This document shows, piece by piece, positions 197 through 26,737 of a DNA stretch of 27,724 nt. A program made the translations under genes and the position numbers. The notes under the pieces were generated by a model, which saw only the letters and a list, made by a program, of their open reading frames with translations, searched no databases and was not told where the DNA came from. The first letter of the stretch is position 1; each line of letters begins with the position of its first letter. The stretch is from a virus: positions 1 to 27,724 of the IMG/VR virus record IMGVR_UViG_3300042987_002408. One strand, written 5' to 3'.

Positions 197-427
197 GCTA
201 GTGCCAGAAGTTCTACTAGCTGTAGATGTTCCATCAGTACCTGTAGTGCCGCTTGTGCCACTACTTCCGCTGGTTCCAGTGCTTCCACTACTTCCAGCTA
301 GACCGCTAGTGCCGCTGCTTCCGCTACTCGCACTGCTACCGCTGTTTCCAGATACTCCACTGGTTCCACTGCTTCCGCTTAAACCACTAGTTCCACTTGA
401 ACCAGACGAACCTGAAGTACCGCTAGA
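1..427 (-). repeat. Collagen-like Gly-X-Ser coding repeat
   Basis: On the minus strand this stretch codes for triplets such as GTS, GSS and GLS from about residue 598 of the fibre gene. Interruptions occur (GTAQTSGTSSVSG and TASRTSG). The glycine-every-third-residue pattern is that of a collagen triple helix, with Ser/Thr in place of Pro. The DNA is visibly more GC-rich than the rest of the gene because of the GGN, AGC and ACC codons. A plus-strand open frame at 201-533, rich in Pro, Leu and Val, is only the complement of this repeat. Confidence 0.85.
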
Positions 428-2218: not shown

Positions 2219-2226
2219 ATATTACA

Positions 2227-7651: not shown

Positions 7652-10386
7652 AGAGCTTTACCAGCTAAATTAAAAGCGTTTGGCAATCTTATTTGATTTG
7701 CTTTTAAGTTTAAAACCGAAGACGAACCACCAGTAAAAAGTTTAAAATAAGAATTCAATAAAAAATTATTTAACTGTTGATTTTCACCAACATTTAATAA
7801 TCTATTATAAAATACAATATCAAAATAACTCATACTTTCTCCAGCGGTCGTGCAGTTGCTTATTAATTTCAAAGTTGTATTTTCTATAAGAGAAGTAATA
7901 TAACTATCCGCAAATTCAACAAAAGATCCCATATTATAAGTAACAATTAAATTACCATTCACATAAACTGAATAAATACTATTTGTTCTTTTAATATTTA
8001 TTAACATCGGATAATAATCTACGGCATTCAACAAGCTTTTAGATAATTGAATATAATTATTATTCGCAATACCAGTTACATTCCACCATAAAGCCGCTCC
8101 CATTTCTGTATTTTTATAAGGATGATTAAACAATGGATTAACAAAAAATTCAAAAACATTGCGTTCTTTTTTGTAATACCAAGCATCGGTATTATAAGGA
8201 AATGCTTTTATTAAAATTTGATTATCTATTGTATTGATAGTTGGATTTAATGACCAATCCAATAACTTAAATTTAGAAGTAATATAAGTTTGATTGTCAG
8301 TATATTTAGGATCTTTTGTAATTGGCTTGTATGCTACAACCATGTATAAATCAAACTGATTACAATTTTTCTTTATCATTTCCGTGTTAGATGCAGAAAA
8401 TTGATATTGAACATATTGAGAGCCATTTAAAGTAACCGATTTTAATCCAGTACCTAAATAATCATTATTAAAAATTCCACCAGCAACTGTACCAGCTAAA
8501 GTCGCAGTAGTTGTAGTATCTTTCCAATTAGAAGCTCCAGAATCTATAGCAGAATTCTCAAATCTAAAAACATAATCAGAAGCTACATTCCCAGAAGCAA
8601 TAGTAAAATTTGTTTTTATATTGGAAAATCCATTTAAAATTTTACCAGCTGAAGATTGATTTTGATTTATTGGATTAAAAAATAATTGAGGCGTAAAATT
8701 ACTATTTGGTTTTACAAGTTTTGTATCTTCTATAGTTCCTGTATCAATTCCAAAAAAACTTGGATCGTATTTTAAACTTGGCGCTTTTGACGTAACTTTT
8801 AAAATAGGATATAATTGACCTTGTTCACCATAAACATGAGGCCAAGAAGATAAAGTGCCAAAACTAGATCCAGCTATAATAGCAGCAAATACCTGTTTCC
8901 CATCAACAATATTCATATTATTTCCTATTTTTGTTTCGTAAACAGTATAACTCGTAGCTCCTTTATCATTTGGCGATCCAAAAATAGGAAAAACAGTACG
9001 AAAAGAATTTTTATTTTTATCTATTCCACCAACATTAGCCGCACCATTGCCATATATCCAAGCAACCAAAGCTTTAGATCCTCCACCACCAGCAGTTAAC
9101 GCAGAATTACATTTTGAAATTATGTTATAATTTATATCAGTATATTCTTTATCTATATTAGAAACTATTTCAAAATTAAAAACTGATCCGCCATTTTTAC
9201 AATCTGTTATATTAGAACCAGCCTGAGAGTATGCTGCTTGAGTTTGAGAAAAAAGATTTTCAAATGAATATGTTGTTTGATTTCTCTCGTTTGGATATTC
9301 AATAGAACCTTTTAAATCACCACCTTTTCCAGCGTATCCTAGAAGTTTTGTAGTTTCTGATAAATAAATATTTATATTAGTACCGTAAGTAGAATTACCT
9401 GAAAAATTTTTTAATTGACCTTGTAAATTTAAAGAATATAGACTTTCATCATCAGCAGTAAAAGTTGTTAAATCAGGTAAATAAACATTTATTCCAGATA
9501 TGTATTTAAAATTATTATTCCCTTTATTTTGAGAAATAATCTGATTATATAAGTTATAATTTGTATAAATTGATCTAGGAGATATATATACATCAAGAGC
9601 ATTTTTTGTAAATATTAAATTCACTTTGTTACTCATATTTCCAGTCAATACTTCATTTGACACCTGACTATCTAATTGATTTATTCCAGTAGCATAGACA
9701 GATTCACCAGTCACATTATCTACCCAAGTGTACATTCTTGCATAATAAGGTTGATCTAAAATAAACTGAGAACCATCATCATAAGCTTCTACTTTTCTAA
9801 AAATATCTTCATCTGGAAATCCATAATAAGTGGAGAATACTGGAATCGAATTATTCTGCGGAACATTGTAAGTTTTTGAAACAACTTTTGTTGAAAAAGA
9901 TGTATCAGTGGCAACATCTAAACCCCATCCAGTAACAAAACGATTATTTAAATATCCAGTTCCAGTTGGTGGTCTCCAGTAAAAACTATAACTTAATCCT
10001 TTTTCTGGATCATAATTTTTTAAAGCTCGAAAATTTCTAACATGACCGCCCGTTGTGTCAACTATTCTATGTCCAGTTGCATATATGGTTATACTTCCAC
10101 TTGGATCTACAGAACCATCTTCAGTAGATTCTGATGATATAGTTATAGAAGCTGTTTCATAACCTGATACACCATTTAGCGTAGGATTAAATAAAATATC
10201 AAAATGATCTGAATTTCCATTAGCAATAATTAATTGCGAATCAGATAAAAGAAAATTACTATCACTACTTGTCATAGTATAAGCAATCTCTGAATTACCG
10301 CTATTATAAATATAAACAGGATAATTTATGCCAAAACCAGTCATGCATTCACCAATAAATTTACCAGTAGAATTTGTATATATCAT
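7648..10386 (-). CDS. Large multidomain tail adhesin (Ig/ASH-like, FN3-like, ConA-like)
   Basis: A 912-residue protein inserted between the M-like and L-like genes, where lambda has nothing. Residues about 10-110 look like an Ig-type ASH/HYDIN beta-sandwich (YIYNSGNSEIAY, FDILFNP, ITIYATG). Residues about 115-230 resemble an FN3-like module. The middle contains glycine-rich loops (AGKGGDLKG, ALTAGGGGSKA, GAANVGG) typical of surface-exposed fibre tips. Residues about 600-890 fit a ConA/LamG-like lectin fold and end in YFDIVFYNRLL, followed by a short helix, as such virion domains often do. Both ends are ATGA overlaps with the neighbouring genes. A role in binding the cell surface is inferred; no family name can be given with certainty. 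Confidence 0.7.
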   Translation of the reverse strand: MIYTNSTGKFIGECMTGFGINYPVYIYNSGNSEIAYTMTSSDSNFLLSDSQLIIANGNSDHFDILFNPTLNGVSGYETASITISSESTEDGSVDPSGSITIYATGHRIVDTTGGHVRNFRALKNYDPEKGLSYSFYWRPPTGTGYLNNRFVTGWGLDVATDTSFSTKVVSKTYNVPQNNSIPVFSTYYGFPDEDIFRKVEAYDDGSQFILDQPYYARMYTWVDNVTGESVYATGINQLDSQVSNEVLTGNMSNKVNLIFTKNALDVYISPRSIYTNYNLYNQIISQNKGNNNFKYISGINVYLPDLTTFTADDESLYSLNLQGQLKNFSGNSTYGTNINIYLSETTKLLGYAGKGGDLKGSIEYPNERNQTTYSFENLFSQTQAAYSQAGSNITDCKNGGSVFNFEIVSNIDKEYTDINYNIISKCNSALTAGGGGSKALVAWIYGNGAANVGGIDKNKNSFRTVFPIFGSPNDKGATSYTVYETKIGNNMNIVDGKQVFAAIIAGSSFGTLSSWPHVYGEQGQLYPILKVTSKAPSLKYDPSFFGIDTGTIEDTKLVKPNSNFTPQLFFNPINQNQSSAGKILNGFSNIKTNFTIASGNVASDYVFRFENSAIDSGASNWKDTTTTATLAGTVAGGIFNNDYLGTGLKSVTLNGSQYVQYQFSASNTEMIKKNCNQFDLYMVVAYKPITKDPKYTDNQTYITSKFKLLDWSLNPTINTIDNQILIKAFPYNTDAWYYKKERNVFEFFVNPLFNHPYKNTEMGAALWWNVTGIANNNYIQLSKSLLNAVDYYPMLINIKRTNSIYSVYVNGNLIVTYNMGSFVEFADSYITSLIENTTLKLISNCTTAGESMSYFDIVFYNRLLNVGENQQLNNFLLNSYFKLFTGGSSSVLNLKANQIRLPNAFNLAGKAL

Positions 10387-12380
10387 AGTTGTAATAGCGT
10401 ATTGAAAAATATATCAGAATCTGTTTTACCTTTAAATTCTAAAAACTTAGCTGATATATCATGATTGTTATAGAACTTATATGTATGACTCCATTCTGGA
10501 CAATAAACGTTAACTGTTTTATTATAAGGAGCTGGTAAATCTATTTCAAAAATTTTGAAACCCGCTTTATTATCTAAAAATTTTAATAAAGCTATAGTTT
10601 CTTTATCAGAACGATTATTAAAAGCAAAATCAAAAGTTAAAACAGTTTTATTAATTCCATCATTTTCAAAAGCTGGCGCAGTCATCTCATATTCATTTTT
10701 TAAAAATCTTGGAGATACTGGAATGCTATAATCAATATCAGGTTTAAAATAAAATTTATTAGTAAATAAAGAATTAGAACCAGTAGGACTTGTAGAATCA
10801 TTTAATATAGCATTACTTGTTCCAGTATACCAATAATAACCTTCAACATTATTATCTGCATTTTTTAAAAATACTACATCATCTTTAACATAAGTTTTTT
10901 CTTGTTTATATTCTCTTGTGACTTCTACTCCAGTAACCAAGAATCCTCGATAGTCCAAACAAGAGTTATAAGCCGAAACGCAATTAATATTAACGCTATT
11001 TAAATTAGACTCCTTTGAAGCATAACTTAAATTTTCAAAATATATTTTAGCATTATTTTTATATGGATAAAATAGATCCATATTGACACTTTGATATGAT
11101 TCTTCGATATTTAATGGAGCATATTCAAAAGTATTTTGAAAAAATCCTATCAAAGCTTTTGATTGAATATCAGATAATCCATCGTATGTTAAAGTAAAAT
11201 TACTAGTTAAATTATTTACATTAGGAGTAACATTGGTATAATAACCATCACCATACTGCATTCTTAATGTTTTCGTAGAAAAACTTGCAGAGCAACCATA
11301 AGTTTTTTTAAATAACGAATCTATATTTTTAGTTAAAAACTGAGATCCTGTAATATTTATTGGCGAATATCTATAATCAGAAGCTGTAAAATCTTGAGAA
11401 GCTAAATATAAATTATCATCATTAGTAAAATGTTTCTTAAATAAATATTTTTCAATTTCTAAAATTTGATCATCTGTTGGAACTTTTGAATACCCTAACA
11501 TTTCATAGTAAGAAATATTACTTGCATCATAATTATATAACGCACTTGTAGCCGAATTTCCATGACCATTGCCAGCAGTTCCTAATCTTAAATTATCAGA
11601 ATTTGCATGAAAATAATTTGAACTATTAATGTTTAAAATTTCATATCCATTATTTCTTATGCGTAAAGCATTAGTTGTATTATTTTTTATTATAGATACT
11701 ATATTTTTATTATTTAATAGTTTCGCTGATGAAAACGCAGAGTTTATTGTTGAAGCGGATGGATAAACGGCTTCTGCTGGCCCTCCAACGAACTCTTCCG
11801 AACCATTAGGAACATTTGGATTTAAAATTCCATTAGAGTTATTTCCATAAACACCTAAATAACCGCTTGATTTTACTGGATTAGAATCGTCTGTATTTAA
11901 TATTGTCGAAAAATTAGAATAATATCCATCAACAGTTTGATATCCATATCTTAAAGAATCAAATTCATAAACTATAAACCAACATCTATCATCTGATAAA
12001 AATCCAGAAAAATCGCTTGAAGTATATAATTGATTATATTCTTGATTTTCATTAAAAGCTTTGAACGATAAACAATTTTTTTGATCATTGAAAACTGGAC
12101 GAGTTTCTTTTGCTGCTGTTGAATCTATATTTATTAAATATTGTAAAGAATGACCTGGAGCAGAATTGTACCAAACGTTAACTCTTCCAGACCCATCGAA
12201 TTCTAAATTATTTAAATTATCTAAATTAAACCAAGCAAAAAGACCAGATAAATTAGTTGGATAACTTGAATTACCAGTATAATACTGAAAATCGACCAAA
12301 TCATATTGATCGTATGAAGTAGTTAAAGAAAAATTCTTTATTCCAGAAATAGAAAATTGTGAATCTACGAATTTACTCAT
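10383..12380 (-). CDS. ConA-like domain fused to two lambda-gpM-like tail tip domains
   Basis: 665 residues. After a short N-terminal stretch (MSKFVDSQFSIS), residues about 45-320 match the LamG/ConA-type domain of many phage proteins. Its entry is LSGLFAWFNLDNLNNL, then VNVWYNSAPG, and its exit is TDDQILEIEKYLFKKHF. Residues about 360-475 carry the M-family signature QYGDGYY (GDGYY 377-381) followed by NNLTSNFTLTYDGL, as in lambda minor tail protein M. Residues about 485-545 resemble a CBM-like spacer (YVKDDVVF, YYWYTG, FYFKPD). Residues about 550-660 form a second M-like domain ending YNKTVNVYCPEWSHTYKFY. Lambda M is only about 109 residues. Position upstream of L supports the assignment, although the adhesin gene intervenes. 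The second M-like domain is less certain than the first. Confidence 0.72.
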   Translation of the reverse strand: MSKFVDSQFSISGIKNFSLTTSYDQYDLVDFQYYTGNSSYPTNLSGLFAWFNLDNLNNLEFDGSGRVNVWYNSAPGHSLQYLINIDSTAAKETRPVFNDQKNCLSFKAFNENQEYNQLYTSSDFSGFLSDDRCWFIVYEFDSLRYGYQTVDGYYSNFSTILNTDDSNPVKSSGYLGVYGNNSNGILNPNVPNGSEEFVGGPAEAVYPSASTINSAFSSAKLLNNKNIVSIIKNNTTNALRIRNNGYEILNINSSNYFHANSDNLRLGTAGNGHGNSATSALYNYDASNISYYEMLGYSKVPTDDQILEIEKYLFKKHFTNDDNLYLASQDFTASDYRYSPINITGSQFLTKNIDSLFKKTYGCSASFSTKTLRMQYGDGYYTNVTPNVNNLTSNFTLTYDGLSDIQSKALIGFFQNTFEYAPLNIEESYQSVNMDLFYPYKNNAKIYFENLSYASKESNLNSVNINCVSAYNSCLDYRGFLVTGVEVTREYKQEKTYVKDDVVFLKNADNNVEGYYWYTGTSNAILNDSTSPTGSNSLFTNKFYFKPDIDYSIPVSPRFLKNEYEMTAPAFENDGINKTVLTFDFAFNNRSDKETIALLKFLDNKAGFKIFEIDLPAPYNKTVNVYCPEWSHTYKFYNNHDISAKFLEFKGKTDSDIFFNTLLQL

Positions 12381-13183
12381 AATATATTTCTTAATGGTGC
12401 TACGCGTTGAGTTATAGCTAAATTACTTTGAACTATTCCGTCTGAAGAAACATCAATTGATCTTGATTGAATTTTTCCTGAAATATTAAACATGTTCAAT
12501 AATGAATTAGAATAATTTTTCAAATATAATTCACAATAAGTATCTTTTCCTTCTATAGGCGCTATATCATTTTCTTTTGCAACATTTCCTTCTACCGATA
12601 CATTTTTTAATCTATTTGTCTTTGCCACTCTGAAAGGAATAATATTTCCAACTTCAAAAAATGGAATTCTATCGCATTGTTCTGAATAAGTGTATTTAAA
12701 GATTTCATCAAATCCAAACACCTTGCTTGTATCCATAATATAACTATGGTTAGCATGAGCTAAATTAGTTAATGGAGAATTTCTAGAATTTGTAAATTCT
12801 TTTATATTAACTGTGCTATTTGTTGAATTTATTTTACCATACCAATCAAAATTAACATCCATTACTACAGGAGAAAAATCAGAAACAGAAAATGACATTG
12901 ATTTTAAATAACAGTTTTCTATAGAAATTCCCCCAAATGAACAGTTTATAGGAGTTTCGCTATCTCCAATTGGAAATAAGTAAGATGGAACTGTTCCAGT
13001 TAAAAAAAACTTAGAAGACAAAGATCCAATCACTGTATTATCTGGAGCATATCTTAATAAGCTACCATCTGATAAAATTACTGGTGATATATTACTTTGT
13101 AAAGATATGGATACAGAATCAGAATAATAAACAGCGTTATTGATTCTGAAATCTATATTTTCATATTTTATAAATTTGCTCAT
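12377..13183 (-). CDS. Beta-rich virion protein, probable paralogue of the 15 kb gene; possible tail tube/hub protein
   Basis: I choose ATG 13183 (MSKFIKYENIDFRI, 268 residues) because it overlaps the previous stop as TAATG and gives a plausible N-terminus. The frame is open to 13258, but those 25 residues are shadow of the upstream gene. The protein is almost all beta strand with alternating hydrophobic and Ser/Asn/Val residues. A C-x-R-type motif (FKYTYSEQCDRIP) and a CYLKSMSFSVSDFSP strand recur in similar form in the protein at 14978-15922, which suggests a common origin. No family was recognised. Placement between tape measure and tip proteins would suit a tube-fold or distal-tail protein, but that is inference. 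The gene ends in an ATGA overlap with the M-like fusion. Confidence 0.68.
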   Translation of the reverse strand: MSKFIKYENIDFRINNAVYYSDSVSISLQSNISPVILSDGSLLRYAPDNTVIGSLSSKFFLTGTVPSYLFPIGDSETPINCSFGGISIENCYLKSMSFSVSDFSPVVMDVNFDWYGKINSTNSTVNIKEFTNSRNSPLTNLAHANHSYIMDTSKVFGFDEIFKYTYSEQCDRIPFFEVGNIIPFRVAKTNRLKNVSVEGNVAKENDIAPIEGKDTYCELYLKNYSNSLLNMFNISGKIQSRSIDVSSDGIVQSNLAITQRVAPLRNIL

Positions 13184-14976
13184 TAAACTATTGTATAAGC
13201 AATTGTTGAAACTACTGAAAAAGTTACTGGTAGTGTTTTTGTACCAGCCGAACTGCATAATCTATACTGCAATAATTGACCAGAAGTAAAAGCAGTTGAC
13301 CCTTGAAAATTAGCTTTAGTTTTTACGGCTACTTGATTTTTAGTCATTGTAAAAGTAGTTGCGCCAATAATTCCACTTGTTGGATAAGACACTGGATTAC
13401 TTGGAGGGCTAACATAAAAACCAGAAACAAATCCGTCTGGAGTAAACTCATTATAAACTTGTGAAATAGCAGATATTTCAAATCTAAAACCTACTCCATC
13501 ACCATTATCATCAGAAGTCATTACCATTACTCTTTCAACAGTTCCATCAAAATTTGCTATTCCAAATGGTGATGCTATTGAATTATGGCCAGATGGATTG
13601 CTGCTAGAATTTGGATATAATGGATTAAAATATATATCAGTACCCGTAACTTTAGCCTGATATGTTTGAACAAATTTTCCTTTACAATAATCATCATTAG
13701 AAGTATAACTTCCATCTATATCTAAACTTCCTGCCGTACTTAGTTTTGCAACAACGTCTGGAGATGCTCCAGCATATCCATTTTTTACAAATACAAAATA
13801 ATCATTTAAACCAGCAAAAATAGTATCATTATATAAGTTTCCAATAGACCATTTATCAGTGCTTGGTGAACCATCATAACGAGAAAAAGTTACAAAACTA
13901 TTTCTGGGTCCAGTGTCTCCTCCTCCAAATGGCTTATTTGCGGCTACTACAATTTGAGCATATCCTTGAGTGTTTGTATTTTGAAAATATGCTGGAGTAT
14001 AATCTGTTGGATCCGTTGATCTTACATCTAATTTATATAATGGACCAGTTGTACCTAAACCCAAAAATCCACTACCACCTATTGTATAAACTAAATTTTT
14101 TTCACTTAATGTGCTATCTGCTCCAAAATAAATTTTATTGGATTGTAAGCCATAATATGATGTAGCTATAGTATTTTTATAACTGACCGTTGATTGATTA
14201 CTACGAGATTGATATCTAGCTAATTCACCTATTCCACTTGCATGCAATAAATAGGCAGGTATTGCATGACCCAAACCTATTTTAGGAGCAGTTAAACTAT
14301 TATCAACATAAATACCATTAAAGCCTATATTAATATCACCAAGATTATTATAATTTAAAAGCAGAATTTCATCTGTTGCACTTGTTTTAACTTCCGTATT
14401 ATATGGATCGAACAATAAAGCATTTCCAGAATTTTGAAATTGAATTGAATCGCCGCTAACCAAAAATCTATCAGATAAAGTTCCAGTAGAATTAGTTAAT
14501 CCAAAATTGCCACTTTGATCAACTACAAATAAATTGGTAAAAGTTGAACCATTATTAATCGATGATTCTAAATATAATTTAGTATCATTTGATTTTTTAC
14601 TAAATTCATAATAAGTATTTGGATCGCTTAATGAAAAAGCTATCTTTCTGCCAGAATTAGCAGTGCTTAATCTAATTTGTCCAGAACCATTTGTAGCCGT
14701 TAAATTATCTACGACATCTAATGAAACATATGGAGTTCTATCATTTATACCTACAAAACCATAATTTCCACTTACACTTAATCCATAAATACCATTATTT
14801 TCAAAAATAGTAAAACCTTGACTATCTTGAGCATAAAAACCAGTAAAAGCTTTACTAAATTCGTCTCTAGTTATTTTATTATCTTGTGTGGAATCGGTAT
14901 TGGATACCAAAAATATATCAGTAGCCGCAACATTTGCTCCTAATTTATCAGATAATGATGATAGTGGTATGCCCAT
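13183..14976 (-). CDS. Tail fibre-like protein
   Basis: 597 residues. The N-terminus (MGIPLSSLSDKLG, then TDIFLVSNTDST) resembles the short anchoring segment of phage fibres that precedes the shaft. Two stretches, FVGINDRTPYVSLDVVDN (about 75-92) and LGLGTTGPLYKLDV (about 305-318), follow the GIN/GLGTT...LDV pattern repeated in many phage and algal-virus fibre shafts. The C-terminal quarter (VERVMVMTSDDNGDG onward) looks like a compact beta-structured head. I see no intramolecular chaperone peptidase motif. It lies 1 base after the previous gene and overlaps the next by one base (TAATG), between two probable paralogues. A fibre role is inferred from composition and these motifs. Confidence 0.72.
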   Translation of the reverse strand: MGIPLSSLSDKLGANVAATDIFLVSNTDSTQDNKITRDEFSKAFTGFYAQDSQGFTIFENNGIYGLSVSGNYGFVGINDRTPYVSLDVVDNLTATNGSGQIRLSTANSGRKIAFSLSDPNTYYEFSKKSNDTKLYLESSINNGSTFTNLFVVDQSGNFGLTNSTGTLSDRFLVSGDSIQFQNSGNALLFDPYNTEVKTSATDEILLLNYNNLGDINIGFNGIYVDNSLTAPKIGLGHAIPAYLLHASGIGELARYQSRSNQSTVSYKNTIATSYYGLQSNKIYFGADSTLSEKNLVYTIGGSGFLGLGTTGPLYKLDVRSTDPTDYTPAYFQNTNTQGYAQIVVAANKPFGGGDTGPRNSFVTFSRYDGSPSTDKWSIGNLYNDTIFAGLNDYFVFVKNGYAGASPDVVAKLSTAGSLDIDGSYTSNDDYCKGKFVQTYQAKVTGTDIYFNPLYPNSSSNPSGHNSIASPFGIANFDGTVERVMVMTSDDNGDGVGFRFEISAISQVYNEFTPDGFVSGFYVSPPSNPVSYPTSGIIGATTFTMTKNQVAVKTKANFQGSTAFTSGQLLQYRLCSSAGTKTLPVTFSVVSTIAYTIV

Positions 14977-15926: not shown

Positions 15927-18900
15927 TCAGTTTCTTATACCAGCTAATGAACCGCCAAAACGTTTTTCTTTTCTAATAGTATCAAGAACAACCTCATAAA
16001 CTTTACTATTTAAATTTTGTGATAACTCAACATCTTGTTGTGCATAACTTGTGCTATTAGCTCCAATTTCAATCTTACCATCTCTTTGTACAGTAGTATT
16101 AAAATTAAATGAATTACTAGCATTAGTATTATTATTAATTGTGCTATTATTTCCAATTGCACCACCATAACCAACTCCAGATGAAGCGCCACCTATTGCA
16201 TAACGTTTAACTATTGGATTATCAACCAATCCACCAGTAGCATAAGTTGGAACAGTATCTGATAAACGAGAACCAATTAAACCACCAATTTGACGACGAC
16301 CAAATCTTGGTTTAGGAGTCGCAAAAACAGCTTGATTTTGTACTATTGCTAATCCTTCTGGGCTAAGTCCAGCGTCTCCACTAGCTGCAATTTCTAATTG
16401 CCCAGCAGGTGTTGCTGCATATCCTCCTTCTGGCAATTTAGTAGGTTGATTAAATTTATTGATTCCAGCAGATATACCTAAGCTTACAGCCGCACCAGCT
16501 AATGATCCAATCAAACCAGCCATTTGTTGTCTTTGCGCTCTTTTCTTTTGTCTAGCTGCTTCTATTTCTGCTCTTCTTTGATCTCTCAATTCATTATATA
16601 GTTTACTTTCTTCTAAACCAAAACTAGTCATATTAGACTCCATAGAAGAAATATCATCAAAATTACTCGTAAAAGTTCCTCCCGCAGCAAAACGAGGAGC
16701 CATACTAAAATTTAATTTATCAATTTCAGCGGGACCACCCATCGCCATTACTGCATTTCTATTTAATACATATTCACCATTCTCTAGCAATGCTGGATAT
16801 TTATCTCCAGAACCAGTTCCAGAAATATACATACCAGATTGAGCGCGAATGTATCCTCCTTTTTGTTTCAAACCTCCAGCGGCTGCTGCATTACTTATTC
16901 CTGGGATATTCATGCCAAAACTTCCTAACAATCCATATATTGCACTTCTCATCATAATCGTACTCATTTCATCAAGAAATTTTGAAGCTATCCCCATCAA
17001 AGCTTCTCCTAAATTATTTGATTCGCGAATTGCTGCTTTTATTCCGTCTACCAAACCATCACCAAACATTTTAGGCAGATCTCTTCCTAAAGTATTTATT
17101 AGCTCTTCACTTTGACCTCTTAAACTAGCCACACCAATAACAAAGTTGCCACCGAATGTAGATTGCATTCTCTTGTATTCATCAGTATTTTTCTTAATTC
17201 GATCTCCAATATCTCTTTGTACTACTAAAATATCTTTTTCTTTTATTAATCTATTTTGTAAAGCTTTAGTGTCTTCAGCTATTTTATCTGATTCTTTAGT
17301 TTTAGATACTAAAGCTCTGTTTCTAATAGTTTCAAGTTGTTGATAAATACTTAATGTTTGTTGATCTTGCATTAATTTGGCAGCTTCACTTTGTGAAACT
17401 CCAAGTTGTGCAGCTCTTGATTCAAAATTACTAGTTATATCTGAAATTTGTTGTTGAGTCAATTGATTTTTAGGATCAACATTAAGCAAATCTTTTTTGT
17501 ATTCAGAGAAATCATATCCTCCTAAAGAACCTGGTCTTTGCTGCTGTAATTGCTGATAAGCTTTAAAAGCAGAAGTTTGCTCTGGAGAATAAGATTTAAG
17601 TTGCGCTATTTGTTCTTTTTGTTGTATAGCTAAAGCGCGATCAGCTGCCGTAGTGGAGATGCTTGATACTCTAATATCAGCTATATCTTTAGCTTTTGAT
17701 AGTTGTTCATTACTCATTCCTATATAAGGATTTTTTTTCATTTCTTCATATGATCCACCCATTTGCTCTTTTAATATATTATTAGTTAATTCAAAAACAG
17801 CATTTGTTAAATTTTGTAAAGCAGTTGTATTAGCTTCTCTTGTTGCAATTTCTATTGCTGCTTGTTGTATTTGATCATTTAAAGTCGCGTCTTCGACTTT
17901 ACGTCTTTCTTGTATTGCTTGATTTTCTAATCTGATTGTTTCTTCTGTATTCGAACGAATGCCTTGACCCAAGATTCTAAAAGGATCTTGGACTCTAGCT
18001 TCAGTTAATTGAGCTTGAGCGCTGCCTCTAGCCGCACTAATTGCAGATCTAACTTGCAATTCATCAACTAATTCTCGCATAGCTCGCAAACGCAAAAGAA
18101 TGCCTTTATCAACTTCTGCTTTTTTAACTGCTAAATCTGTTTCTGCTTTTAATCTTGCAGCTTCAAATGAAGATCTAATACGATTTTCTTCTTCTAAATA
18201 TTTTTGATTAGCATCGAATTTAATTTTTTCTTGTTTTGCTGTTTCTGCTGCATATTCAATAGATTTTTGAGCATTAATATTTGTTAAAAATTCAGCGCTC
18301 TTTGACAAAGAATTTACTGCTTGAATGGCTGTATAAATTTTTTTAGCTGCTTCTTCAGCATTATCCCCTAAATTTTTAGATTTCTCTGTTAATGTTTTTA
18401 GAGCAGACTCTCTTCCACCTGCGCTTGTTAAATCTAATTTTTCTAAACCTTGTATACCAGATTCTTCAATCGTTTGTTTTGCTTGTTTTAAATTTTGTTG
18501 ATTCAAATCGTTAAGCACACTTGTTAAATCAAAACTATAATCTCCTTTTTGAATTTGTGGTAATAATTGTGTTTCAAAATACTGAGCATTTTGTTGAGAT
18601 TGTAGTATACTAGATTTAAAAGTATCTGTTAATTTGGATGCGTTTTTCTCTAAGAAGTCATTCTTTGCTTTTTCTTGATCTATTTGAAATTTATTATTGT
18701 TTAATTGTATTTTATTTAAACCTTCGGTATATTTTCTTGTAGCAACTTGAGGGGCCATTTGTAATTTGCTAAATTCATCTAACGTATCAGATAAGAAAGA
18801 ATCTAGAAAACTATTGAAACCTGTAGAAAATTCTAGTATTGTATTTTGAATTTTGTTTTCACCAGTTGCGGAGATGAATCGTTTTTCAAGATCAAAATTT

Positions 18901-21900
18901 TGTTTTTGTAAATTATTAGCTATTCTTTCAAAAATTGCTGAATAAGATTCAGTAGCTACTTTATTAAAATTAGCAAATTTTTCAGAAATATCAGAAATAG
19001 AAACACTTTTTTCTAATTCTTTTATAAACTCTTCTGGATTTTTGAGAAAATTCTCATAAGCGATTCTTACTTTATCGCTTCTATCTTTTGTATTTTGAGG
19101 AATAATTGATTCAATGAAATTTCTAATAACTTCATTGTAAGCCTGTATTCCTTTGTCTGATGCGCTAACAGGACTAGTTATGCGCCTTTCTGGTAAATCA
19201 GCAATAATTTCTTCTTGTTTTGTTTTCGCTGTTTTTCTTGCTTTTTCCGCTTCTTGTAAAGTCTTTTTAAAATCATCAATGAATTTTTTACTTTCTGATT
19301 TTCCTAGTCCCACTGATAAAGCAGAAGCTCTCTCTTGCGGTGTTAAATTTTGTCCAAATAATCCAGTTTGTTTTGCAGATTCTTTGCTAACTTGATTAGT
19401 ATATTCTTGTAATTGTCTTGTCATTATCGCAACATCACCACCTGCTGCTAAGAACATTTCTTGCAATTTAGTGTCTTTTATTTGAGAAAAATTATTAGCT
19501 AAATTTTTAGTGGCAGTTTCTATTTCTGTTGAAGAAGCTCCTTTAGCAACCATATCCGTCAAAGATTTTTGAGCTTCTACATATGAAGACGCGGCAGATA
19601 TATTAGCTTGTGCTTTTTGAGTTTGTTCTTGATTCAATTCCATCAAATCTTCTGCGGTTAATTTGGCTGCATCTAAAGCAGCAGTTAAACCAATTAATCC
19701 TCCTATAGCTGCACCAAAAGCGGCTCCCAATCCTGGAATAATTCTATTTCCTATATCTGCACCAGTTGTTAAAGCTGTCACTCCAGTGCTTAAACCTGAC
19801 TGCAACATTCTTTCATTTTCAGTCATGTCTATTCTTTTTTTATTTCCAACAATAAAAGATTCTAGTTGTCCCGCAATCATAGGTCCAAGTAATCCAATAT
19901 TATCGAATGCAGCAGATAAACTTTTGTTAAATCGAGCAAATCTACTTGTATTTTGAGAAGTATTCGAAACTGTTTGTTGAGCCGCTTGTCTTTCAGCTTT
20001 AGCGTGTTCAATAGCAGCTTTTCTTACTTCATTAAAACTTTGTTGATTTAAATTAAATTGTGGAAGCAACTTAGTTAAAGCATCACTTATCTGTTTATTA
20101 GTTGTCGTATTTAAATCAATACTCTTTATATAATCATTTACTGCTTTATTTATTTTGTTATAACTTACCGCTCCTCCACCAACTGATGCGCTGCGCTGTA
20201 AAGGAGTTCCTCTAATATCAAAATCAGCAAAATTAGGAATAAATCCCTTACTCATTAAACCAGCAGCTTTTTGTCCTCTCATTGAATCGCTCAAAGCATT
20301 ACTTAAACCACCATGATCAGCAATCGCGGAACTAAATGTTGGTTGACTGCTATTTCTAATGTGTGGGAAAGGTTTTGTATCGAAGATAGCTTTATTGCCG
20401 CTCATGCTTTCTTCTAAGCCCATTACTGCTTGTTTATAAGCAAAATTGGGTATGAAGCCTAAAGCAGATTTAAGACTACCAATTTCTTGATGAGAAAACG
20501 TTCCATCTTCATTTAACAACATTCTCAAAATTCTTGCTTGAGGATTATTTTTTGCAAATTCACGAACAGCTTTTGTAAATCCACGAATACCTTTATTACC
20601 ACCTTGTAAACCAGTTCTGCCGGGAATATTAAGATCTCCTTGAGCAACTCTTTTTTCTCTAGCAGATTTAATTGTACTTCTTGAACCAATTAAAATATCG
20701 ATCATGTTTGATTTACCTATGATCTTTTTAATATTTTCAGCAGAAACTACATCTTTTTGAGGCACTTCAAATCCTGCTCTATCAAATACATAACTACTAT
20801 ATTTATTAAAATCAGTACCAGTCATTATCTCGCCACCATATTGACTAACGGCGCGAGTTGTTTTTCCTGAACCTGCGGGACCGATTATTGAGCTAATTGG
20901 TTTATTAGTATCAGCTAAAAATTGTAATGCTTGTTTATATGCTGCGCCTTTTAAAGAATCGCCAGTTAATACTCCAACATCAGCTAAATTAGGAATAAAA
21001 CCTGATGCTGAATTCAAAATCATTTTCTTACTTGCAGCATTATATGTCCAACGCCCCATCTTATCGTACATGGCTTTATTATTTTTATAATCGCCATAGA
21101 AAATTCCTTGTTCTTTGTATTTTTTCAATTTCTCTATTTCGCCAAGATTTTGAAGATTAGAAACACCAGCCAAATCAGATCTTAAAGCCGCATAATTTGC
21201 GCCTCTCACACCTTCAGCACCTTGACGATAATCACTTAATTTAACCCTTGTTCCAATGTATTGATTTTTAGCAAGCCAATCATTATAAGCTTTTTTCAAT
21301 AAAGCTGTCTTGGGTCTAATTTTTTCTTTATCTTCATATTTACCACTTTCAGAAAGTGATTTCAAATATTCCCAAGCAGATTTAGTTTCTGGATTACTAG
21401 ACCAAAAAACTCCTAAAACATCTGAGAGTCGATCATAGTTAATTCTCTTCATTCTTCCAGAAACTTGACCAGTATATACTGAATTTGGATTAAAGACGTA
21501 TCTTGAATTTCCAAATGCTTCGCTCATCATTCCTCTTTCCATACCAAGCGACTTTGTTTTTCCTCCGCTTGATAATCTTAAAGCCGCAACTCTAGCAGAA
21601 AATTCAGCATAAGCATTAACATCATCTGTTAATCTAGGATTTATATAAGAAGTATCAGGTATAAAAACATTATTGCCTAATATGGACATTACCATATTAT
21701 TCAACTGCTCTTTTAATTGATATCCATATGATTTAAAACCGGGTTGTCTATATACAGTACCACTTAATCCTGTTCCTTCTTCTCCAGAAAATACATTACC
21801 AAAACCCGTTTTTGTTCTAAAAAATTTAGTGCTAATTTTTTTTCCTTCAAAATTAGGAATGAAACCACTTGCAGCAGCCATTGCTAAAAACGCAGGATTT

Positions 21901-24900
21901 TTTACATAATTATTTAATAAGCTATCTGTTTCTGCGGACAATGCTTCTACAAGACTAGGGCTATTCTTCAACATTTGAGAATAACTTGTTCCAGCTAATT
22001 CAAGAAAGTTTTTACCAAACTGAGATGGCAATTGACTTTCATGACCAGTTTCATTGAAAGCCATGATAGATTCTTTTATTTTAGCCGCTTTTTCAGGGTC
22101 AGTTTTAACAACTCTATTAAATTTATCATTCAAATGTTTAGTAACTGATCCGCTTGATAAATTTTTTTTCGGAAAACCTTTGAAATCAAAAGCAACGATT
22201 CCTTCTTTTTGTAAAAGAGCTTCGTCAAATGCAGTTTGACTAGATATTGCTTTAGGTTGTAATGCGCTACCTCTAACAAATTCACCAAATATATTTGATT
22301 TATTTATTAATTGTAATGCTTTTCTACTAAAAGTTTCATACAATGGGCCAAAAATATTACTATCTCCTTTCTCATCTGCGCCTTCAGCAGTGCTTCTAAA
22401 ATTAACTTGTCTAAAAGTATCTATGTCACTTGCTTTAGATATTCCTAAAGCAGGTTGAATAGTATCAAAAGCAGGATTACCAAATTTTTTAAACCAAGGA
22501 ATTCTTATCGCACTTGTAGGAGGAGCAAAATTAGGAATAAAACCACCACTTAAATTTACTCTATCTTTATAGTAATGAAGAAGAATTTTTTGATTCATTG
22601 CTTTCTGCATTTCTTCACGACTTAAACCTTTTAAGAATTCACTTTTAGAATCAGAAGATAAACTAGAAATTTTTGTTTTATTTAAAAACTCGTCATCTTG
22701 ACCTTTTCCTATGATTTCTGTAAAATCTGGAACGAAAACAAATTCATTACCATTAAACCAAAAATCTTCATTGGAATGTTGCAATAAATTTTTATATGTT
22801 AATTTAGAATGTCTAATAATTTTACCTGCAATTTGTGGGTTCGTGTGTCCAAGACCGCTATGAGCATCCGCAAAAGTTCCTGAATCATAATATCCTTTAT
22901 TGAAACCTAAGCTAGTATCATCTGGTATATTAGGCACTACTTTAAAATCAACCGCACCATTCCAAGATGGAGGTTCTCCAATATACTTACCAACAAGTTT
23001 TTCAAAATCTCTTCCGCGTTCGAGGCTTTGTTTTAATTTAGATTTTTTAGCATCAGCAAAAAAATTAGGAATAAAGCCGCGATACATATATGGATCGACA
23101 CCCGTTCTACTTATAGCGTTTTGTCTATGTGCGCGACCAGCTTTTGATCCAGCGGGAGGATTAATAAAAGGTTGAGCAAAACCGGGAATATATTTAACAT
23201 CTTCCGCTGTATTCATTACCCCACCAACAGGAGATGAAACAACTCTGCCGGGAGTATAACCACCAGCTTGTGCGCCAACAACTTCAGCCATTTTTGTTGC
23301 GTTAGGAATATATCCACCTGCGCGTGTAACTTGTAATCCACCAGAACCTTTAACTCTTACTCCTTGTCCAGCCAATTGAACTGCTAATTGTTTAGCAAGA
23401 GTAGTTTGCATTTGATACTCTGCTGTTTGTTGTCTAGCTAACTGAAGTAATAATTGAGCTTGTGCAGCTTGATTACCCATATTTCCAGCAAGAGCTTGAG
23501 AAACTGGCCCTTGTTGCTGCATGATTTGCAAAATAGATTGTTCAATATTTTTTCTATTTTGTGTTTCAGTTGTTATGCCAGCAATTTGAGGCAGAGCCTG
23601 ACTAAGATAAGTAAAAGAATTTTGTATTAACTTAAAAAGCGTAAAGAAAGCTGCAATAGCGCCGGGACCAGCTATTACATTACGAATACCTTTTAATAAA
23701 CCATTTGCAAAAGTAGAACCAACCCCTTCTCCTTCGAGAACTTCATTCATACTTTCAACAAAAGATTTTAATTGCTCAGCACCATACTTAGCCAATGGTT
23801 CGAATGTTACTTTGCCAATGTTATTTGCTAATTGTTGAGTAGAAGTTGCGGTTTGTTTTAATAAAGCATCAAGAGTTTGATTCAATTTTGCAGTTGCTAC
23901 TTCGGCTTCATTTGTTGCCGCTGCGCCTCTTTGTAAAGCTCCAGCGTATGTACCTTGTGATTTATTTAAATCATTAACAATAGCTTTTAAGATGTTAACT
24001 TGATAAACACCCGCAACTTGTTCTGATAATTGCGCTCTTTGAGCGTCAGCTAAACCTTTATAAGCTCCAGCAAAGTTTTGTAATATTTGGACGGCTGGTA
24101 AAATATTACCTTGAACGTCTCTTACAGAAATATTAAAAGCTTCTAATTGATCTAAAGTATCAGTACGTTGTAAGCGAGTAAAAATTGTTTTTAATGCGTT
24201 ACCAATTACCGCGCCACCTCTTGCTGTACTTTGTTGAGCTGAAGTGACCAATGCGTTCAATTGATCAAGACTAACACCTGCTTCTTGCGCCGCTTGTCCT
24301 GTACGAGACAAAGCTTCGGCCAAATCTCCTGCACCTACAGCATAATCTTGTTCTACAGCAACTAGCTTATTTAAAATTTGAGTGGTAGAAATTCCAGTTG
24401 CAGCGAATCCGTTTACGGTAGATGTCAATGCATCAACAGCATTTGCAGTGCTAATTCCCGCCAATCTTGTTAATGTCAATGCATCTTTTGTTCTTTGAAG
24501 AGTTTCTTCAGCTTTCAAACCTTGACGAGAGAATTCAAGAGCGGCTTTAGAAGCTTCATCGAATGAAGAAGCTGTTAATTTAGTTACATTAAATAAATCT
24601 GTACTAAATTTTTGCAACTGACTTGTAGTTAATCCGAATACGCGATTAATATCTGCAAGATTTTTTTCAACTTCAATTGTTACATTAGCTAATTCCTTGA
24701 AACTGCGAATTACACCTCCAAGAACAGCAGTAGAAGCGCCGAATGCAATAACGCGAGCATTAGAAGCAGCGAGCGCAGCTTCGAAGTCTTTAACATCGCC
24801 AGTGATTCTTCCTAATGGTTGAGAAAAACCTCGTTGATTAATGCTTAGATTAATTTGGTTGTTCTGAGCGAATCTTTGATTATACGCTTGAACACCAGCT

Positions 24901-24956
24901 TGAATAGAAGCTGTTAATGCTGCTTGATTAGCTGCGACATTAATTTGAACTGCCAT
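15927..24956 (-). CDS. Tail tape measure protein with GFIPNF-delimited cargo-like domains
   Basis: A 3009-residue protein that sets tail length and is ejected during infection. Residues about 80-400 match the TP901-type tape measure core (FGASTAVLGGVI, SFDEASKAALEFSRQG, TARGGAVIGNALKTIFTRL). A hydrophobic stretch follows near 430-460. Residues 548-1577 hold eight copies of a GFIPNFA-type peptide separating distinct segments. One contains Walker A GPAGSGKT (1359-1366); two contain DFK signatures (D670 and D924). After 1577 come hydrophobic stretches near 1705-1770, with IIPGLGAAFGAAIGGLIGL, then about 900 residues of charged helix and coiled coil. The C-terminal GDKYPALLENGEYVLNRNAV (2717-2736) is a typical tape-measure ending, followed by a hydrophobic segment, AGLIGSLAGAAVSLGIS. 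The ATG lies 28 bases after the upstream stop, with only a weak AAGAAA-type leader. At about 0.15 nm per residue, even the protein without the cassette implies a long tail. Confidence 0.95.
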   Translation of the reverse strand: MAVQINVAANQAALTASIQAGVQAYNQRFAQNNQINLSINQRGFSQPLGRITGDVKDFEAALAASNARVIAFGASTAVLGGVIRSFKELANVTIEVEKNLADINRVFGLTTSQLQKFSTDLFNVTKLTASSFDEASKAALEFSRQGLKAEETLQRTKDALTLTRLAGISTANAVDALTSTVNGFAATGISTTQILNKLVAVEQDYAVGAGDLAEALSRTGQAAQEAGVSLDQLNALVTSAQQSTARGGAVIGNALKTIFTRLQRTDTLDQLEAFNISVRDVQGNILPAVQILQNFAGAYKGLADAQRAQLSEQVAGVYQVNILKAIVNDLNKSQGTYAGALQRGAAATNEAEVATAKLNQTLDALLKQTATSTQQLANNIGKVTFEPLAKYGAEQLKSFVESMNEVLEGEGVGSTFANGLLKGIRNVIAGPGAIAAFFTLFKLIQNSFTYLSQALPQIAGITTETQNRKNIEQSILQIMQQQGPVSQALAGNMGNQAAQAQLLLQLARQQTAEYQMQTTLAKQLAVQLAGQGVRVKGSGGLQVTRAGGYIPNATKMAEVVGAQAGGYTPGRVVSSPVGGVMNTAEDVKYIPGFAQPFINPPAGSKAGRAHRQNAISRTGVDPYMYRGFIPNFFADAKKSKLKQSLERGRDFEKLVGKYIGEPPSWNGAVDFKVVPNIPDDTSLGFNKGYYDSGTFADAHSGLGHTNPQIAGKIIRHSKLTYKNLLQHSNEDFWFNGNEFVFVPDFTEIIGKGQDDEFLNKTKISSLSSDSKSEFLKGLSREEMQKAMNQKILLHYYKDRVNLSGGFIPNFAPPTSAIRIPWFKKFGNPAFDTIQPALGISKASDIDTFRQVNFRSTAEGADEKGDSNIFGPLYETFSRKALQLINKSNIFGEFVRGSALQPKAISSQTAFDEALLQKEGIVAFDFKGFPKKNLSSGSVTKHLNDKFNRVVKTDPEKAAKIKESIMAFNETGHESQLPSQFGKNFLELAGTSYSQMLKNSPSLVEALSAETDSLLNNYVKNPAFLAMAAASGFIPNFEGKKISTKFFRTKTGFGNVFSGEEGTGLSGTVYRQPGFKSYGYQLKEQLNNMVMSILGNNVFIPDTSYINPRLTDDVNAYAEFSARVAALRLSSGGKTKSLGMERGMMSEAFGNSRYVFNPNSVYTGQVSGRMKRINYDRLSDVLGVFWSSNPETKSAWEYLKSLSESGKYEDKEKIRPKTALLKKAYNDWLAKNQYIGTRVKLSDYRQGAEGVRGANYAALRSDLAGVSNLQNLGEIEKLKKYKEQGIFYGDYKNNKAMYDKMGRWTYNAASKKMILNSASGFIPNLADVGVLTGDSLKGAAYKQALQFLADTNKPISSIIGPAGSGKTTRAVSQYGGEIMTGTDFNKYSSYVFDRAGFEVPQKDVVSAENIKKIIGKSNMIDILIGSRSTIKSAREKRVAQGDLNIPGRTGLQGGNKGIRGFTKAVREFAKNNPQARILRMLLNEDGTFSHQEIGSLKSALGFIPNFAYKQAVMGLEESMSGNKAIFDTKPFPHIRNSSQPTFSSAIADHGGLSNALSDSMRGQKAAGLMSKGFIPNFADFDIRGTPLQRSASVGGGAVSYNKINKAVNDYIKSIDLNTTTNKQISDALTKLLPQFNLNQQSFNEVRKAAIEHAKAERQAAQQTVSNTSQNTSRFARFNKSLSAAFDNIGLLGPMIAGQLESFIVGNKKRIDMTENERMLQSGLSTGVTALTTGADIGNRIIPGLGAAFGAAIGGLIGLTAALDAAKLTAEDLMELNQEQTQKAQANISAASSYVEAQKSLTDMVAKGASSTEIETATKNLANNFSQIKDTKLQEMFLAAGGDVAIMTRQLQEYTNQVSKESAKQTGLFGQNLTPQERASALSVGLGKSESKKFIDDFKKTLQEAEKARKTAKTKQEEIIADLPERRITSPVSASDKGIQAYNEVIRNFIESIIPQNTKDRSDKVRIAYENFLKNPEEFIKELEKSVSISDISEKFANFNKVATESYSAIFERIANNLQKQNFDLEKRFISATGENKIQNTILEFSTGFNSFLDSFLSDTLDEFSKLQMAPQVATRKYTEGLNKIQLNNNKFQIDQEKAKNDFLEKNASKLTDTFKSSILQSQQNAQYFETQLLPQIQKGDYSFDLTSVLNDLNQQNLKQAKQTIEESGIQGLEKLDLTSAGGRESALKTLTEKSKNLGDNAEEAAKKIYTAIQAVNSLSKSAEFLTNINAQKSIEYAAETAKQEKIKFDANQKYLEEENRIRSSFEAARLKAETDLAVKKAEVDKGILLRLRAMRELVDELQVRSAISAARGSAQAQLTEARVQDPFRILGQGIRSNTEETIRLENQAIQERRKVEDATLNDQIQQAAIEIATREANTTALQNLTNAVFELTNNILKEQMGGSYEEMKKNPYIGMSNEQLSKAKDIADIRVSSISTTAADRALAIQQKEQIAQLKSYSPEQTSAFKAYQQLQQQRPGSLGGYDFSEYKKDLLNVDPKNQLTQQQISDITSNFESRAAQLGVSQSEAAKLMQDQQTLSIYQQLETIRNRALVSKTKESDKIAEDTKALQNRLIKEKDILVVQRDIGDRIKKNTDEYKRMQSTFGGNFVIGVASLRGQSEELINTLGRDLPKMFGDGLVDGIKAAIRESNNLGEALMGIASKFLDEMSTIMMRSAIYGLLGSFGMNIPGISNAAAAGGLKQKGGYIRAQSGMYISGTGSGDKYPALLENGEYVLNRNAVMAMGGPAEIDKLNFSMAPRFAAGGTFTSNFDDISSMESNMTSFGLEESKLYNELRDQRRAEIEAARQKKRAQRQQMAGLIGSLAGAAVSLGISAGINKFNQPTKLPEGGYAATPAGQLEIAASGDAGLSPEGLAIVQNQAVFATPKPRFGRRQIGGLIGSRLSDTVPTYATGGLVDNPIVKRYAIGGASSGVGYGGAIGNNSTINNNTNASNSFNFNTTVQRDGKIEIGANSTSYAQQDVELSQNLNSKVYEVVLDTIRKEKRFGGSLAGIRN
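20226..23315 (-). repeat. Dispersed GFIPNFA peptide repeat within the tape measure gene
   Basis: Eight seven-residue copies in frame, with the first base on the minus strand: 23315 (GYIPNAT), 23192 (YIPGFAQ), 23078 (GFIPNFF), 22544 (GFIPNFA), 21866 (GFIPNFE), 21002 (GFIPNLA), 20459 (GFIPNFA) and 20246 (GFIPNFA). Spacing is irregular: about 41, 38, 178, 226, 288, 181 and 71 residues. Several copies also match at DNA level, the plus strand reading gcaaaattaggaataaaacc or a near variant. The sequences between copies do not resemble one another, so this marks module boundaries and is not a simple tandem repeat. Confidence 0.88.
20460..20981 (-). other. P-loop kinase/NTPase-like domain inside the tape measure protein
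   Basis: Residues about 1326-1499 lie between two GFIPNF copies. A hydrophobic strand, SSIIGP, leads into a perfect Walker A motif GPAGSGKT (1359-1366) followed by TRA. Downstream are GTDFNKYSS, a hydrophobic strand MIDILIGS, and an Arg/Lys-rich region STIKSAREKRVAQ. That order resembles P-loop nucleic acid or nucleoside kinases and zeta-toxin-like folds, in which the Arg-rich segment acts as a lid. Substrate and activity are unknown. The Walker A match is direct; the family placement is inference. Confidence 0.55.
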
Positions 24957-24984: not shown

Positions 24985-25980
24985 TTATCCGAATATTTTC
25001 ATCATATCATCCATACTCAATGAACCACCTTTCTTCTTGGCCTCATCAGCTAAAGAAAGAGTTTTTTGACCTTTAGCCTTCAAACCTATATATTCAAGAT
25101 CTTCGGAAGTCGCTCCAACGATAGAAGTAGCTTGGTTTTCTTTATTATTTTTATTTTCTATAGCTTTTTTAGCGTTTTCATTCGCATTAACATAATCAAT
25201 AATCTTGTCAGGATCATTTTTAATTTCTTGAGGCATTTTATCGTTCTGCTGAAATACATTCTTAAAAAATCTAGCATAAATAAGTAATTTTACTTGATTA
25301 TAAGTAAGTTCACATACTGATTTACCAAAGAATTCAGTAGGATTTTCTGCAAAAGGCATGTATAAATTAAAAAAATCTTGTAAAACTAAATATTGAATCG
25401 TGTTGTCATTTATATTTTTATATACTTCTGAATATTGTTTTATGATGCAAGTTAGAGTTTCTGAGTCAATATTATCAAATTGATCTTCTTCAAAAGCGAC
25501 CATACTTAGTTTTTTATCTTTATATAAACACTTAAGAATATAAAAATCATTAACTCTTTCTTCAGCATAACTTTCGGCAGTTCTATTAAAAAAGGCTGCT
25601 TTAGTATTTTTTAAATCGTATAATCTTTTTTGTGCCGATTCGATATCTGCATTTATTCTTAATATTTCTGATTTTAAATATAATACTTTTTTTTGTTTAG
25701 TTAAGTTCTCAATAAAATCTTCTTCTTGTTTTATTAAAGACTCTTGTCTACTAGACCATTGTTTTTCTTCAATAAGTCGTTTTAAAGTTTCGTCGTTAGT
25801 TGGTACGCCACGATTTTTAGCTTCTTCAAAATAATAATCATAGATCTGATCGATATCGACCTGATCTTCTAAAGACAAATGCTTTAAATAAAAAAGATTC
25901 TCTAAAACCTTGATTTCAGAGAATCCGTTTTTAATATCCCGAAAAGCTTTTTTATACTTACTCTGTTGGGACTGTTCCAT
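24985..25980 (-). CDS. Putative tail assembly chaperone, immediately upstream of the tape measure
   Basis: 331 residues, rich in Lys, Glu and Leu, and predicted almost wholly helical with a likely coiled coil at about residues 70-125 (LIEEKQWSSRQESLIKQE). The C-terminus MDDMMKIFG is a short acidic-hydrophobic tail of a kind I associate with chaperone-like phage proteins. It sits directly before the tape measure, where siphophages encode the chaperones that keep the tape measure soluble. This is the only gene with a clear Shine-Dalgarno sequence: GGAG, 6 bases before ATG 25980, inside the previous gene's last codons. It overlaps that gene by 23 bases in another frame. I recognise no named family. 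The function is inferred from position and composition. Confidence 0.62.
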   Translation of the reverse strand: MEQSQQSKYKKAFRDIKNGFSEIKVLENLFYLKHLSLEDQVDIDQIYDYYFEEAKNRGVPTNDETLKRLIEEKQWSSRQESLIKQEEDFIENLTKQKKVLYLKSEILRINADIESAQKRLYDLKNTKAAFFNRTAESYAEERVNDFYILKCLYKDKKLSMVAFEEDQFDNIDSETLTCIIKQYSEVYKNINDNTIQYLVLQDFFNLYMPFAENPTEFFGKSVCELTYNQVKLLIYARFFKNVFQQNDKMPQEIKNDPDKIIDYVNANENAKKAIENKNNKENQATSIVGATSEDLEYIGLKAKGQKTLSLADEAKKKGGSLSMDDMMKIFG

Positions 25981-26737
25981 CTATTTCTCCAATTATTCTA
26001 TCGAACTCTTCTTTTTCAGTGTTGCTAGTAAAGAACCAATAACTAATAATACTCGCTAACTTACTATAACACTTTTCGTAAATTTCATTCTTATTTTCTT
26101 CGTAATCAAACATAGCCGCTTCTTTAGCTTCGAAAGTTTTACCTGGAAATAACCATTCAAATTCAGCATTTTTCTTACTATTATCCTTAAATTGAGTAAG
26201 ATTAAGTACATACCATAGAATAGCTCTGTTCTGAGCTTTGATATCAGCGGTATGATTAAAAAGAGTCATATAACTAGTTTCTTTTTCAATAAGTGTTTTT
26301 CGTCTTTGCAAAATTTCAGAAGTAACAGATTCGATCTTCTTTTTATAGTCTTCATCACGCTCTGATTCTGGCTTCAAATTAAGAATCGTAAGTCTACTTT
26401 GTAGATCGCCAATTTCTCCAGCGGCAGAAACCATTACCTTAGCGTCAGCATCGCTAATTAAACCACCAGTATCGCTGTACTTATTTAGCAACATTGCTTT
26501 TGTCAAAATACCATTTCTGATACATCTGCTCATTTCAATGCTGAATTCCATGTCGGCTTCTTGCATTTGTTTTCGATTTGGCTGCAAAATATTTATTTCT
26601 ACTGGAATCTGTTTCTTTACCTTTTCTTTATAAGTGCGAGTAACTGATTCACCTTGTTCATTTGTTACCGTTTCAGTCTTGTCTTCTTCGACCTCGGCAT
26701 TTTTAAAAATATTGAAACTATATAGAGACTTTGACAT
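25958..26737 (-). CDS. Putative tail assembly chaperone or virion protein, first gene of the minus-strand unit
   Basis: 259 residues, charged and mostly helical after a Lys/Glu-rich N-terminus (residues about 14-45). The stretch KQMQEADMEFSIEMSRC followed by IRNGILTKAMLLNKYSD (about 56-89) looks like a conserved core. A second helical part runs from about 165 to 245 (WYVLNLTQF, EWLFPGKTFEA, IISYWFFTS). It lies two genes before the tape measure, the usual place of the first chaperone of a G/GT-type pair. The next start is offset by +1 and no slippery heptamer is visible, so a lambda-style -1 fusion is not supported. No Shine-Dalgarno sequence precedes the ATG. I recognise no named family. Confidence 0.6.
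   Translation of the reverse strand: MSKSLYSFNIFKNAEVEEDKTETVTNEQGESVTRTYKEKVKKQIPVEINILQPNRKQMQEADMEFSIEMSRCIRNGILTKAMLLNKYSDTGGLISDADAKVMVSAAGEIGDLQSRLTILNLKPESERDEDYKKKIESVTSEILQRRKTLIEKETSYMTLFNHTADIKAQNRAILWYVLNLTQFKDNSKKNAEFEWLFPGKTFEAKEAAMFDYEENKNEIYEKCYSKLASIISYWFFTSNTEKEEFDRIIGEIDGTVPTE

Follow-up and report, generated by a model that had tools for sequence, protein, structure and literature searches.

The tape measure protein of a lambda-like siphophage lineage as a putative carrier of exchangeable cargo domains joined by a GFIPNFA peptide

The DNA described here is a viral sequence of 27,724 nucleotides (nt), positions 1 to 27,724 of IMG/VR record IMGVR_UViG_3300042987_002408, and this whole stretch is called the window. 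Its tail module is lambda-like and encodes L, JAB-type K-like, I-like and J proteins after a large open reading frame (ORF) for a tape measure protein (TMP), in which residues 127-316 match the PhageMin_Tail profile (E=1e-26) and which also matches the tail-length tape measure family phrog_4211 (E=5.5e-44). The TMP consists of a constant N-terminal core, an array of cargo-like domains and a C-terminal tape (Table 1). The array is marked by seven copies of the peptide G[FY]IPN[FLA], the first and the fifth of which read GYIPNA and GFIPNL in their six-residue forms, and all seven are confined to the cargo region, the tape being free of the motif. The initial annotation of this DNA had counted eight copies, the candidate eighth being only a weak YIPGFAQPF in the first spacer; its coordinates for the array, 20226-23315, coincide exactly with the motif span, and its spacings of 178, 226, 288, 181 and 71 residues are right as distances from one motif start to the next, the domains themselves being 171, 219, 281 and 174 amino acids (aa) long, with a spacer of 64 aa after them. 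The globular look that it had ascribed to these segments is borne out by their composition, in that Trp, Pro and His are present in the cargo (0.7%, 3.8% and 1.1%) and largely absent from the tape (0, 1.6 and 0.1%), which is Trp-free and rich in Gln, Glu and Ala across aa 1578-2600. A DEK_C match below the threshold (E=1.8e-4, 21.8 bits, cut-off 24.8) lies at 20013-20159 on the minus strand, TMP aa 1600-1648, directly C-terminal of the last motif.

Table 1. Layout of the TMP in the window; positions are those of the window and residues those of the TMP.
Feature	Position	Strand	Residues	Length (aa)	Remarks
TMP ORF	15927..24956	-		3009	PhageMin_Tail and phrog_4211 matches
N-terminal core, constant	23316..24956	-	1-547		88-98% aa identity in most relatives
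Motif copy 1, GYIPNAT	23295..23315	-	548-554		degenerate
Constant spacer, family 3 (NTAEDVKYIPGFAQPFINPPAGSKAG...)	23079..23294	-		72	first segment wherever present
Motif copy 2, GFIPNFF	23058..23078	-	627-633		
Cargo A, family 4	22545..23057	-	634-804	171	degenerate PD-(D/E)XK-like domain (predicted)
Motif copy 3, GFIPNFA	22524..22544	-	805-811		
Cargo B, family 1	21867..22523	-	812-1030	219	PD-(D/E)XK-like (predicted), full triad
Motif copy 4, GFIPNFE	21846..21866	-	1031-1037		
Cargo C, family 7	21003..21845	-	1038-1318	281	domain type unknown
Motif copy 5, GFIPNLA	20982..21002	-	1319-1325		
Cargo D, family 11	20460..20981	-	1326-1499	174	P-loop domain, GPAGSGKTT
Motif copy 6, GFIPNFA	20439..20459	-	1500-1506		
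Constant terminal spacer, family 0	20247..20438	-		64	family 0 or 2 is the last segment
Motif copy 7, GFIPNFA	20226..20246	-	1571-1577		
C-terminal tape	15927..20225	-	1578-3009		
Gly-rich hydrophobic helix (IIPGLGAAFGAAIGGLIGLTA)	19680..19742	-	1739-1759		169 aa past the last motif

The GFIPNFA repeat is a virus- and TMP-specific hallmark. With the motif profile [AMK][AS]xG[FY][IV]PNFA, 441 copies were found in 111 TMP ORFs, as against one in shuffled versions of those ORFs. A degenerate DNA pattern for GFIPNFA occurs at at least 120 loci in viral contigs, and among 120 listed viral ORFs 100 carry two or more motifs and 110 are at least 250 aa long. The same pattern gave 119 matches in contigs of prokaryote genomes, with two or more motifs in a single one of the 119 ORFs, and the reversed peptide, a control of identical composition, gave 22 viral matches, each of them single. 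Taken together, these counts show that the motif is not a product of chance. The one prokaryotic ORF with a repeat is on L142, a 3960-base contig in the 'Proteobacteria' metagenome-assembled genome WB5_3A_111, and its TMP, in which the domain order is unchanged, has 75% identity over 1311 aa to that of the window; it is probably a phage contig binned with a host and offers a possible lead to the host. The codons of motif copies in the same ORF have an identity of 0.69, where 0.58 would be expected, and no more than 12% of the copy pairs are identical. Because the codons vary between copies, the conserved thing is the peptide, and on the same figures the motif is not favoured as a site of recombination at the DNA level.

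The comparison of related TMPs for which the initial annotation had called was made with 162 motif-bearing ORFs from related loci, some of which overlap on the same contig. Their segments fall into 90 sequence families, about 87 of them besides the spacer families 0, 2 and 3. Family 3 is the first segment in all 12 architectures that have it, 66 distinct architectures end in family 0 or 2, and between these spacers stand 0-7 cargo units in varied order; most of the architectures with no cargo stem from truncated loci and are therefore not to be read as TMPs without cargo. From one ORF to the next the first motif hardly shifts relative to the N-terminus (median distance 626 aa), while the length of the array is variable. 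Family 11, which is cargo D, has families 7, 5, 39, 22, 23, 0 and 2 as neighbours among the relatives, and family 7, which is cargo C, was seen only beside family 1. The same cargo family occurs twice within one TMP in only one of the 162 ORFs, and 50 of the 51 relatives of the window's cargo are in motif-bearing ORFs. There is thus strong support for the proposal that the segments between motif copies are mutually unrelated, globular and cargo-like, with families reused in different orders, breakpoints at the motif and enzyme signatures in many of them. A modular cargo array in TMPs is real and widespread.

These arrays also carry the marks of recent exchange. The last 300 aa before the first cargo slot are 88-98% identical in 11 of 13 relatives (58% in L250, with L142 truncated), and the 300 nt to the left of this slot are 83-94% identical to the window in 10 of 11 relatives (56% in L250), while the slot itself is occupied among the relatives by nine families, 4, 43, 13, 20, 10, 44, 24, 32 and 16. 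Directly after the motif the nucleotide identity falls to 17-38%, the exception being L284 with the window's own cargo, and after the next motif the relatives return to cargo family 1. In addition, L246 is 91% identical to the window over 1198 aa and then lacks exactly cargo D and one motif. Since a left flank of 83-94% identity is mostly followed by unrelated cargo from exactly the motif, recent exchange and not divergence is indicated, and, judging from these alignments, gain, loss and replacement of cassettes take place at the motif. The proposal that the motif is a domain boundary holds in so far as the cargo breakpoints lie exactly at it; however, the motif also bounds the constant spacers of about 65-75 aa. 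In L033, L048 and L072, some motif pairs are separated by 3 aa and others by 47-48 aa, with no cargo-sized domain between them. In view of these closely set copies and the bounded spacers, the motif is not strictly a boundary of cargo domains. A survey of domain mosaicism by Smug et al. 2023 (PMC10684548) described the same kind of fragment shuffling but was unable to establish that mosaicism in TMPs is genuine and recent, whereas recent domain swapping is visible in the present ones.

As to what the cargo may be, the most frequent type would be PD-(D/E)XK-like nucleases, as judged from the signature GxxFE ... D ... [ED]xK, the G, E, D and K of which are present in 100% of 39 sequences of families 5, 9, 22 and 78 and of 16 sequences of family 6. 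In families 24 and 13, G, F, D and K are kept in 7/7 and E in 5/7, and profile comparison joins several of the PD-(D/E)XK-like families. Cargo B keeps E63, D100 and [ED]-x-K115 in 12 of 12 aligned relatives. Cargo A has GRDFE, VDF and FADA, with E and two D kept, and its link to families 24, 13 and 6 is weak (profile E about 0.013-0.015). Cargo D has the Walker A motif GPAGSGKTT, and its profile finds P-loop proteins in the PDB, with 6c2u the best (E=1.5e-6) and the remaining matches weak. Other cargo matches include an SNase (E=1.9e-9), a GHKL ATPase (HATPase, E=3.7e-5), a cytidyltransferase-related segment and a GNAT (E=7.4e-5, passing the Pfam threshold in the listed members); HAD-like cargo is recognized by the motifs DWDGT, TxRP, K and VDD and kinase-like cargo by VKK, HGxN and DPG. 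A possible ART-like segment (family 33) and an HExxH segment (family 34) were noted by eye only, and the HEASH sequence that L007 has in family 34 is at most a lead toward a metallopeptidase. No credible match came from sequence searches of the PDB with profiles of A, B and the HAD-like, kinase-like and nuclease families, and lectin matches in the PDB search were rejected, the common part being the GxxFE stretch only.

On these grounds it is proposed, with a probability of about 0.6, that in this lambda-like lineage of siphophages the TMP may double as a protein-delivery vehicle with an exchangeable cargo array. The array, which follows the constant core and precedes the helical tape, is bracketed by the constant spacers, and each unit closes with a GFIPNFA joint. 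When the tail fires, the cargo would be threaded with the TMP through the tail tube, presumably unfolded, enter the cell together with or ahead of the DNA, fold there and act at an early stage on nucleic acids or defences of the host. It is the known behaviour of tape measures that suggests delivery into the cell, since lambda gpH is labelled at the inner membrane during injection and TMPs leave the tail and act there (PMC13190303). Also in favour of delivery, no transmembrane-like helix lies within any cargo (0/85 TMPs), and a Gly-rich hydrophobic one usually follows shortly after the last motif (54/85); that of the window may be the membrane-inserting part of the TMP. The turnover of cargo resembles what an arms race against the defences of the host would leave behind, and together with the enzyme types it fits host takeover or counter-defence.

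Several results weigh against this proposal. The catalytic Lys is missing from cargo A, which reads DAH or DAY where a nuclease would have DAK, and most cargo had no match in Pfam, PADLOC and PHROG searches. AlphaFold models were of low confidence, with a predicted local distance difference test score (pLDDT) of 54 for A+B from a 15-sequence alignment and 41 for cargo C from a 4-sequence alignment, and Foldseek found no match in the PDB at E<=0.001 for the low-confidence A+B model, so that claims of fold are drawn from the catalytic-residue patterns. Folded domains of 170-280 aa should not fit inside the tail tube, and for this reason the cargo would have to be stored unfolded or elsewhere. 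No conserved protease gene was found beside the TMP, and among the cultured phages searched for the module none carries it; relatives of the N-terminal TMP core have only 20-32% identity among the matches listed.

GFIPNFA would mark each unit for handling, either by proteolytic release of the domains or by binding to the tube or a chaperone; a processing site is slightly favoured, because one and the same short peptide recurring between unrelated domains is what such sites typically look like, and a binding motif is nearly as likely. In an alternative explanation, GFIPNFA does not serve for cleavage and is a docking motif for the tail-tube lumen or a tail-assembly chaperone at handling points, the inserts are kept unfolded for loading and the cargo stays in the TMP. 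Its six near-invariant core positions and hydrophobic FI..F resemble a binding peptide, most relatives encode two proteins immediately upstream of the TMP, where tail-assembly chaperones usually lie, and the constant spacers are bounded by the motif as well. However, the spacing of the motif is highly irregular (54-327 aa between the 5 and 95 percentiles), unlike a register along a tube, and the window's copies are limited to the cargo region. This alternative has an appreciable chance of being right, though we would not bet on it.

It is improbable that the cargo is structural or extracytoplasmic, with a periplasmic or cell-wall role in penetration. Such a role has a precedent in the TMP of mycobacteriophage TM4, which reportedly has a cell-wall (peptidoglycan) hydrolase motif embedded in it; that TMP is similar in having an extra activity and differs in that this is a hydrolase motif and not an exchangeable array. 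Nucleases, GNAT, P-loop, kinase-like and GHKL domains, however, normally take cytoplasmic substrates, and no lysozyme, amidase or peptidase family was matched among 137 representative segments. Even less probable is a selfish or neutral insert, in which homing-endonuclease-like nuclease cassettes spread via TMP genes and are tolerated by the flexible tape length with no delivery: nuclease-like domains are indeed the commonest cargo and the cassettes are cleanly inserted, but the non-nuclease GNAT, HAD, kinase-like and GHKL domains occupy the same arrays, the relatives of the window's cargo are nearly all confined to motif-bearing ORFs, self-duplication within a TMP is nearly absent, and inteins are rejected (a Cys or Ser start with an HN end in 0/354 segments). 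A polymorphic toxin system was also rejected, as the variable part lies in the middle of the protein and is followed by constant spacer and tape instead of being a variable C-terminal toxin.

The proposal of delivery may be extended, with more doubt than confidence, to the TMPs of a large uncultivated siphophage group, which might form a general cassette-loaded injection system with a universal joint peptide that a dedicated machinery recognizes for handling or processing; whatever domain is inserted between two joints would then be loaded, injected and, once in the host, set free. By analogy, the nearest known kind would be the polyvalent proteins of phages and conjugative elements, which carry many unrelated effector-type domains and presumably enter the recipient cell along with the DNA (Iyer et al. 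2017, PMC5512222). Both combine GNATs, kinase-like domains and nucleases in one large protein, here by sequence signatures across the group; however, the carrier of polyvalent domains is a head-packaged or conjugation protein, whereas here it would be a TMP and each unit ends in a conserved peptide. Polyvalent proteins often have a zincin-like metallopeptidase hub (about 36% of members), and none was matched in the window TMP; tape measures are not mentioned in the text of PMC5512222. Sle1 and Tme, effectors of contractile injection systems in Actinobacteria that are related to TMPs (PMC13277306, PMC11126660), are similar in their TMP-like coiled coil and variable functional domains, but they belong to contractile systems and have the effector at the C-terminus, and the available parts of these sources describe no multi-domain array or joint peptide. 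No description of the FIPNF motif or of TMP cassettes was found in the literature, most subscription journals and preprints being outside the search, so an earlier description is possible; the array is apparently undescribed.

If delivery is true, the tape measure, usually seen as a ruler and membrane channel, would also carry changeable early-acting proteins, and the joint peptide would be a natural modular route for proteins into bacteria via a non-contractile tail. Moreover, one searchable peptide would flag many unannotated candidate domains for host takeover or counter-defence.

Between the TMP and the L, K, I and J genes, four large tail-region proteins are encoded at 7648-14976, of which those of 597 and 293 aa have no family match, that of 912 aa has a weak Ig-like match only and that of 665 aa a C-terminal minor-tail match only. 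Two overlapping genes lie directly upstream of the TMP on the minus strand, 24985-25980 (331 aa) and 25958-26737 (259 aa); they are without a significant family match, recur in 76 and 64 related loci, respectively, and may, judged by position, be enlarged tail-assembly chaperones.

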